Source of the DNA: Coriobacteriales bacterium
GTDB taxonomy: Bacteria > Actinomycetota > Coriobacteriia > Coriobacteriales > UBA8131
Assembly (NCBI GenBank): GCA_031272005.1
Contig: JAISUQ010000179.1
Location: 1 to 39,342 of the forward strand
Length of the DNA: 39,342 bases
Direction: 5' to 3'
Shown here: positions 15,914 through 18,490 of the stretch, piece by piece
How positions within the stretch are numbered: the stretch's first letter is position 1
Layout: every line of letters starts with the position of its first letter
Made by a program: the position numbers and the translations under genes
Notes under the pieces: model-generated
What the model was told of the DNA's origin: nothing
The model's input: the letters and a program-made list of their open reading frames with translations, nothing else
The model's database searches: none

Positions 15914-17032
15914 TCAGGGCAAGAATGGCACCGGGTTGACGGCTACGCCGTCAATCTCTACCTGGAAGTGCAGGTGCGGACCGGTGGAGTTACCGGTTGA
16001 GCCAACATACATGATGGTCGTGCCCTGGGTGACGTAAACGCCGGCGGCCGTGCCGGAGGCGAAGGCTGAGGCGTGCATGTACTTGGTGACCACGCCGCCG
16101 CCGTGCATGATCCAGACCCAGTTGCCACCGGAGGAGTTGTACTCCGCCCGCACGATGGTGCCGGCAGCTGCCGCATAGACCGGCGTGCCGGAGGGCACGG
16201 CGATGTCCAACCCGAGGTGCACGGTGCCCCAGCGCGGGCCAAAGCCGGAAGTCCAGGTGCCGTGGCTGGGCAGAGGATAGATGAAGTAGGGCACTCGCCC
16301 CAACTGATCTGAGCTGACTTCACTGCCGCCGTTGTTGGCGATGCGCCGGGCCTGTTCCTCTTCCCAGAGACGGGCCTGCTCGGCGGCCAGCTCCTCCTGA
16401 GCCTGAAGTTCGGCGGCTTCGGCGGAGAGGCGGTCGACCTCGGCCTGCATCTCGGCGCTCTTGACCTCCAGGTCGGCCTTGAGCTGCTCGATTTCCTTTT
16501 CCTTCTCCGAGGCTACGCGCTCCTGCTCGGCGTAGGTGGTCCGGGCTTCCTCGGCCTCGGCCTTGGCATTCTTGGCGTCCTGGACCAGCTGGGCGTCACG
16601 CTCATTGAGGCGGCTGATCATATCCCAGGAGGTGACAAAATCCGAGAAGGTGGTGGCGCCGAAGAGCACGCCCAGATAGGAGGTGTTGCCGTTGCGGTAG
16701 GTCTGGGCGGCGCGGGCGCCCAGCTCGGCCTGGACGTCGGTCATCTGCTGCTCGGCCTCGGCCTCGCGGGTCTCGGCATCCTGCATCAGGGCCAGGGCGT
16801 TCTCGTGCACGGCCACGGCCTCGTCGTACTGGGCATAGACCTCGTTGAGCTCAGTCTGCAGGGCATCAAGCTTCTTGACCATCTCGTCGGCCTCGGCCTT
16901 CTTTTCGGCGGAGGTCACGGCAAAGGCCTGCTGCAGCTTCCAGGGTGCCAGCGCCGAAGCAGCTGCCGTAGCGGCCAGCAGGGCAAAGGCGCGGCGGGAG
17001 AAGAGCTGAGAATACTGTTGTCGTGAGCGCAT
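15914..17032 (-). CDS. Coiled-coil plus M23 (LytM-like) peptidase, possible Tat signal peptide
   Basis: SRRAFALLAATAAASALA N-terminus; long Glu/Ala coiled coil; HLGLDIAVPSGTPVYAAAAGTIVRAEY...GNSTGPHLHFQVEIDG. Confidence 0.92.
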   Translation of the reverse strand: MRSRQQYSQLFSRRAFALLAATAAASALAPWKLQQAFAVTSAEKKAEADEMVKKLDALQTELNEVYAQYDEAVAVHENALALMQDAETREAEAEQQMTDVQAELGARAAQTYRNGNTSYLGVLFGATTFSDFVTSWDMISRLNERDAQLVQDAKNAKAEAEEARTTYAEQERVASEKEKEIEQLKADLEVKSAEMQAEVDRLSAEAAELQAQEELAAEQARLWEEEQARRIANNGGSEVSSDQLGRVPYFIYPLPSHGTWTSGFGPRWGTVHLGLDIAVPSGTPVYAAAAGTIVRAEYNSSGGNWVWIMHGGGVVTKYMHASAFASGTAAGVYVTQGTTIMYVGSTGNSTGPHLHFQVEIDGVAVNPVPFLP

Positions 17033-17331
17033 CGGTGCTCCTAAGCTGTGTTTGCGTCACATTCAGCGACTGTCATTTTCGCGAAAGTCCATTTTATCAA
17101 GAAATAGCTAATCTCGCTCGCTATTAACCGGAATGCCACCGTTATGTAACTTGTGTCATTTTGAAGATTCTTTGCTGAACGTGAATCCTGAGAGTGAATC
17201 GTTGGGTTGAAGCAGCTGGTGAATCAAGAAACTTTAACATAATTGTACTAAATTAAATGTAATACTACCGTCTATGGCCAAAATATTAAATTTGCAACAA
17301 TAATATGTACAAAGCGGCAGTAATCTCTCAA

Positions 17332-17529
17332 ATATGGAGGCTTGCAGTTTGTGGCCAGGCGCCTTGAAGTGCTGCCTTGAAGAAGAGGTGTATATGCCGG
17401 GCGGGCGCTCTGAGGGCAGGCGCGGGTGCCCGCGCCTGCCCCCAGAACACCCGCCCGGAATATACACCTATCCTTTTTCAAGGCAGCACTTTAACCACCA
17501 GGCGCCTGGCCACGACCTGCATGCTCGCA
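17332..17529. mobile_element. MITE-like imperfect palindrome flanked by 11-bp direct repeats
   Basis: Arms contain GTGGCCAGGCGCC (17351-17363) and GGCGCCTGGCCAC (17501-17513); centre GGGCAGGCGCGGG-TG-CCCGCGCCTGCCC (17414-17441); TAATCTCTCAA at 17321-17331 and 17530-17540. Confidence 0.7.
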
Positions 17530-17602
17530 TAATCTCTCAATTTGCCGGGATTCTCATACGGTTTCATATCCAGTATTTGAAGGTTTATCTGCTGTTGGTT
17601 TG

Positions 17603-17709
17603 GGAAGCGCTGATTTATTCCAACCACGGCAAATCCTGTAGGGGATTGCAGTCCAGTGGACTGCGAATGGCTTCAAACAACGCAGGCTTGGGACCTGCTC
17701 AGCGTTTCC
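17603..17709. mobile_element. Second short inverted-repeat-bounded element (weaker)
   Basis: GGAAGCGCTGA (17603-17613) vs TCAGCGTTTCC (17699-17709), 10/11 complementary; internal palindrome GCAGTCCAGTGGACTGC (17648-17664); TTTGGGAAGC repeated at 17599 and 17710. Confidence 0.45.
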
Positions 17710-17722
17710 TTTGGGAAGCTGG

Positions 17723-18490
17723 TTATTTTGTCTTGCTGGGCAGGAAGCTGCCCAAAACCTCGCCGATGTTCTCGCGGAAGAGCAGGTCGGCGGCCGAATC
17801 GCGCCAGGTTTCGCCTTTGTTTATGACCACCAGGCAATCGCCTCTGAACAGGTTGACCAGGCTGGCAGCCGGATTGACCACCAGTGAAGTGCCGCCGATG
17901 ATCAGCACTTCGGCGTGGCGTACGGCATCGGCTGCGGCCTCCAGAATCGCCGAGTTCAGGGGCTCCTCGTAAAGCACCACATCCGGCTTGATTAGCGCGC
18001 CGCAGCCCGCGCGGGTACACAGCGGCAGGTCGCCCTGCTCCAGCAGATCCAGCAGCTGCAGCAGCTCCTCGGCGTTGTAGGCTGCCCCGCAGCTGGTGCA
18101 GGAATTGCGATGGATGGAGCCGTGCAGCTCCCAGACCGTCTGTGAGCCGGCTTTCTGATGCAGCCCGTCGATATTCTGGGTGACCACCGCGCTGAGATGC
18201 CCGTCGGCTTCCAGCTGGGCCAGGGCCCGATGGGCGGCGTTGGGCACGGCGGCCAGCGCCGGCAGCAGGACCTTCTCCTGATGGAATCTGTAGAACTCCT
18301 CGGGGTGGGCATCGAAGAAGCTGCGGGAGAGCATCTCTTCCGGGGGCCAGGCGAATTTTTGCTGGTACAGGCCGTCCTGACTGCGGAAATCGGGGATGCC
18401 GCTCTCGGTGGAGACCCCGGCGCCGCCAAAGAAGACCACCCTGCCGCTGCCCAGCACCGCTTTGTGCAATTGTTCATATCTCGTATCCAT
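17723..18490 (-). CDS. Sir2-family NAD-dependent protein deacylase
   Basis: GAGVSTESGIPDFRS, TQNIDGLHQKAG, ELHGS, Cys zinc site CTSC...CTRAGC, IIGGTSLVVNPA. Confidence 0.95.
   Translation of the reverse strand: MDTRYEQLHKAVLGSGRVVFFGGAGVSTESGIPDFRSQDGLYQQKFAWPPEEMLSRSFFDAHPEEFYRFHQEKVLLPALAAVPNAAHRALAQLEADGHLSAVVTQNIDGLHQKAGSQTVWELHGSIHRNSCTSCGAAYNAEELLQLLDLLEQGDLPLCTRAGCGALIKPDVVLYEEPLNSAILEAAADAVRHAEVLIIGGTSLVVNPAASLVNLFRGDCLVVINKGETWRDSAADLLFRENIGEVLGSFLPSKTK

Follow-up and report, generated by a model that had tools for sequence, protein, structure and literature searches.

The window analysed here is a stretch of 39,342 nucleotides (positions 1 to 39,342 of contig JAISUQ010000179.1) from a Coriobacteriales bacterium. 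In this window, a 690-bp spacer lies between an M23 peptidase gene (15914-17032, - strand) and a SIR2 deacylase gene (17723-18490, - strand), and it holds a near-complete palindrome of 198 bp (17332-17529). The palindrome consists of two head-to-head half-units of about 95 bp. At its middle is a perfect palindrome, GGGCAGGCGCGGG-TG-CCCGCGCCTGCCC (17414-17441, strand-neutral), with a 2-nt centre and 13-bp arms, and the inverted-repeat arms of the element comprise stretches of 47, 32 and 22 nt that are 87%, 81% and 91% complementary, respectively. The left arm (17332-17427, + strand) has the terminus (A)TATGGAGGCTTGCAG...GTGGCC, which is common to the copies C54, C104, C150 and others described below, and is without the TGGTGG block of the right arm. 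The right arm (17428-17529) is in reverse orientation (- strand) and has the terminus TATGCGAGCATGCAGG. The two ends form terminal inverted repeats (TATGGAGGCTTGCAGTTTGTGGCC versus TATGCGAGCATGCAGGTCGTGGCC), and GTGGCCAGGCGCC, present at 17351, recurs as its reverse complement at 17501. Immediately outside the arms are exact 11-bp direct repeats, TAATCTCTCAA, at 17321-17331 and 17530-17540 (+ strand), these being its only two + strand occurrences in the window. The palindrome, its centre, the inverted GTGGCCAGGCGCC and the flanking TAATCTCTCAA had all been noted by the initial annotation within 17321-17540, and all are confirmed. Its description of the setting as AT-rich holds for the surrounding spacer (38-41% GC) but not for the element itself, which is 62% GC. 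The near-identical peptides that it reported from the two strands (VYMPGG... on +, VYIPGG... on -, both with GTG starts) are present, yet they are a trivial consequence of the symmetry and were rejected as evidence of coding. The element has no credible ORF and no gene of its own; the initial annotation had likewise seen no transposase and read it as non-autonomous or an RNA-hairpin repeat.

The M23 and SIR2 gene neighbourhood is partly conserved in relatives belonging to other genera. In two of these (G015 and G001) the genes are adjacent, with spacers of about 262 and 205 bp, respectively, versus 690 bp in the window. The palindrome was not found in either syntenic spacer, although both are too diverged to reveal the target TAATCTCTCAA. 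The palindrome and a second palindromic repeat at about 17599-17722 account for part of the extra length in the window. The latter belongs to an unrelated family, with the core GCAGTCCASTGGACTGC and the ends GGGAAACGCTGA/TCAGCGTTTCCC, that has dozens of matches in the same genome but was not matched in any of 32 other genomes from the taxonomic family.

When the two 43-bp flanks of the palindrome were shuffled, an 11-mer shared anywhere between them appeared in 0.025% of the shuffles (2.5e-4). The two copies of TAATCTCTCAA are direct rather than inverted, which rules out that they simply continue the palindrome. They are best read as a putative target-site duplication, whose length may be 9, 10 or 11 bp given the ambiguous TA/A at the junction. 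We also considered whether TAATCTCTCAA could be part of an outer repeat unit (...GGAGAGAATCGCGAGC...); there is a resemblance on the right, but on the left TAATCTCTCAA would be wrongly oriented, and the idea was rejected. A weak promoter-like site directed towards the M23 gene, a consensus match only, is seen at 17302-17331 (- strand), and its first hexamer (TTGAGA) falls within the left copy of TAATCTCTCAA.

Further copies were sought by BLAST and with a sequence-only profile in the source assembly, which comprises 1.93 Mb in 193 contigs and is 83% complete. Half-units of the palindrome were found at about 23 places, mostly in partial or composite form, and the terminal 24-mer occurs nine times at up to three mismatches, as against zero for a reversed-pattern control. 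The copies are of two classes, and the core CAGGCGCGGGNGCCCGCGCCTG of the central palindrome recurs in both. Class 1 includes full or near-full palindromes (C160, which is the window copy, C54 and C104:1018-1238) and truncated ones (C163, C137, C150, C97, C34, C106, C78 and C157). Class 2 copies (C6, C113, C94, C164, C104:5838-6200, C19, C18, C3, C33 and C166) have one arm and the centre; if the contig extends beyond these, a different GC-rich sequence is joined on. Outside, they have a second half-unit placed head-to-tail, and in C6 the units are in tandem with a period of 91 bp. Outer half-units are also found at the ends of two contigs (C79 and C190). The family is thus modular, built of half-units of 85-93 bp with tandem and composite forms and single-arm remnants. 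The genes beside the copies are unrelated and mostly of housekeeping function (tsaD, degV, alaS, priA, rpoN, mobB, SAICAR synthetase and others). Contig ends are close to most of the copies: 17 of the 23 places are no more than 600 bp away from one, where 12% would be expected (binomial tail about 1e-11). The assembly therefore breaks at these repeats, and the true copy number of the family is probably higher than about 23. The initial annotation had regarded a single-copy repeat as the outcome that would speak against a mobile element; the many dispersed copies with different flanks dispose of that objection. Its MITE-like reading is supported, with the corrections that the family is more modular than a single 198-bp element and that a clear duplication is confined to the window copy.

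At least two of the full palindromes spread as one unit. Arms are more alike between loci than within a locus: the left arm of C160 and the right arm of C54 are 94% identical, and the right arm of C160 and the left arm of C54 are 93% identical, versus 81% between the two arms of C160 and 79% between those of C54. The C160 left arm and the C54 right arm are also both without the TGGTGG block. The flanks of the two copies are unrelated, and homology ends at a TATGG terminus that recurs in other copies. The shared asymmetry together with the unrelated flanks indicates that the arms had already diverged when the palindrome was moved or copied as a whole. C160 and C54 thus descend from one asymmetric ancestor.

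These observations bear on whether the family could have spread passively, the arms multiplying by template switching, microhomology-mediated exchange and palindrome recombination, with the 11-bp repeat a by-product or a coincidence. The mosaic class 2 copies, the tandem 91-bp units of C6 and the arm swaps at a shared CAGGCGC motif in C104a and C157 are what such a process would leave, and the arm junctions at that motif do suggest microhomology recombination. However, passive spread accounts poorly for an exact 11-bp direct repeat at the two ends of the window copy, given the shuffle frequency above, and for both arms being inherited together at another site with unrelated flanks. We consider it improbable as the origin of the family.

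The explanation we favor, with a probability of roughly 0.7, is that the palindrome is a non-autonomous MITE-like repeat of about 198 bp that was moved in trans with a duplication of 9-11 bp, and whose copies are now mostly decayed. The palindrome would have inserted into the SIR2-M23 spacer, duplicating the target TAATCTCTCAA. Without a gene of its own, it would most likely have been copied by a transposase acting in trans, recognizing the terminus (T)ATGGRGGCTTGCAGGTTGTGGCC, which is inverted at both ends. The enzyme itself and its DDE-type staggered cut of 9-11 bp are presumed, and a mobilizing IS or transposase gene would be expected to have the ends TATGGRGGCTTGCAGGTTGTGGCC. In the 83%-complete assembly, PF01609 (DDE_Tnp_1), PF00872 (Transposase_mut) and PF01797 (Y1_Tnp) had no match. 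Given its incompleteness, this does not exclude these families, and assemblies of this kind often lack IS elements. The tandem and composite copies count against the favored explanation, as simple cut-and-paste does not explain them. Because related half-units are also arranged head-to-tail or fused to other sequence, most copies appear to have arisen by decay or recombination. A clear duplication is present at the window copy only; at C104a it is imperfect (CTCGGGAA/CTCAGGAA), and the other copies have none, which fits decay and arm exchange. The label "MITE-like" is used because of this restriction to the window copy, because the relatives' spacers are too diverged to show an empty site with one TAATCTCTCAA, and because none of the three transposase families was matched. 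The window copy serves as a clean insertion footprint, setting the duplication length (9-11 bp) to look for in finding the transposase.

The palindrome has most of the features of MITEs (PMC10969869): it is short (198 bp, under 500 bp), non-coding and free of a transposase, has terminal inverted repeats within a wholly palindromic body, is dispersed at about 23 places in its genome, and has an exact target-site duplication, a feature expected at least in young copies. The exception is AT-richness, which is typical of MITEs though not strict. Its nearest analogues, compared by anatomy, appear to be YPAL/RU-2, ERIC and the REPINs. YPAL/RU-2, the Yersinia palindromic sequence, is about 168 bp long, palindromic, not AT-rich and intergenic, and its target-site duplications range from 3 to 26 bp (PMC2229807). 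The present element resembles it anatomically in these respects, but differs in having many composite and tandem derivatives and in showing the duplication at a single copy. ERIC/IRU/RU-1 and Correia/NEMIS are likewise short, intergenic and MITE-like, with a long stem-loop, no transposase and TA-motif termini (PMC2229807, PMC10969869). By description the palindrome shares these traits, including TA at the termini, but such MITEs are as a rule rich in AT, unlike the present element with its 62% GC and its duplication of 9-11 bp.

In REPINs, an inverted doublet is mobile as a hairpin, singlets are its remnants, and tandem clusters occur (PMC3116915). All three have counterparts here, and the pair of inverted half-units could likewise have been moved as a single-stranded hairpin by a Y1 tyrosine transposase (RAYT), the single half-units being dead remnants. 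We regard this REPIN/BIME-like route as unlikely. Y1_Tnp (PF01797), matched in five control genomes, had no match in the 83%-complete assembly, and the half-units, at about 95 bp, are not short REP sequences. The 11-bp target duplication also argues against it, since none is expected of Y1 single-strand transposition (IS200/IS605).

Transcripts of ERIC/IRU/RU-1 and Correia/NEMIS are reported to be processed by RNase III or RNase E (PMC2229807, PMC10969869). If transcribed from SIR2 towards M23, the palindrome would form a very stable hairpin: the predicted fold is -158.7 kcal/mol on the + strand, where shuffled sequences average -77.3 (z = -16.6), and -160.2 kcal/mol on the - strand (z = -16.9). 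By analogy, RNase III may cleave such a transcript, or the hairpin may affect how stable the mRNA is; either effect would probably be incidental. The extreme stability on both strands and the position between co-directional genes could instead mean that the element is a structured RNA, an mRNA-processing element or a terminator kept by selection, without recent mobility. Six paired positions differ between C160 and C54, and four of the six keep a standard pair, as such selection would favor; none of the six, however, is changed on both sides, and the hairpin thus gives no hint of compensatory selection. Neither the window element nor four other copies had an Rfam match, and an intrinsic terminator was rejected as no terminator-like site is present at the hairpin. 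The element is moreover absent from all relatives searched, and its copies decay into single arms. Selection for an RNA role is therefore a very doubtful explanation of the repeat.

On present evidence, the family is confined to the source lineage. A search of 398 other genomes of the order, from 123 genera and with no same-genus genome among them, did not match the palindrome, and it was absent from the viral contigs, plasmids and phages searched. A 34-bp match in G043 over the GC-rich centre was treated as chance. A core-pattern scan of GTDB genomes, among which the source genome is not included, gave three unrelated matches that were also taken as chance. The family is real and undescribed, and belongs to a known kind, the small palindromic mobile repeats.

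In class 1, in the class 2 composites and in the GCAGTCCASTGGACTGC-core family, the centre is intact while one arm is swapped for a different sequence. The central palindrome of about 22 bp could conceivably be an active exchange point, a suggestion we hold to be rather unlikely; if true, it would suggest that fold-back or template switching builds new composite mobile repeats in this lineage. Composite class 2 repeats of at least 400 bp are seen at L037:6950-7515, L036:1-580, L041:11900-12649 and L040:100-560. Their likeness to the window palindrome is limited to one arm and the centre, and they usually reach a contig end. Beside two class 2 repeats there is a third inverted repeat, ATTATTGGCCCAAAGTAAAC...GTTTACTTTGGGCCAATAAT (L036:90-160 and a matching stretch near the high end of L041). 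At L033:1176-1180, the beginning of a truncated copy overlaps with the TGA that ends the tsaD frame, and the repeat therefore abuts or supplies this stop.
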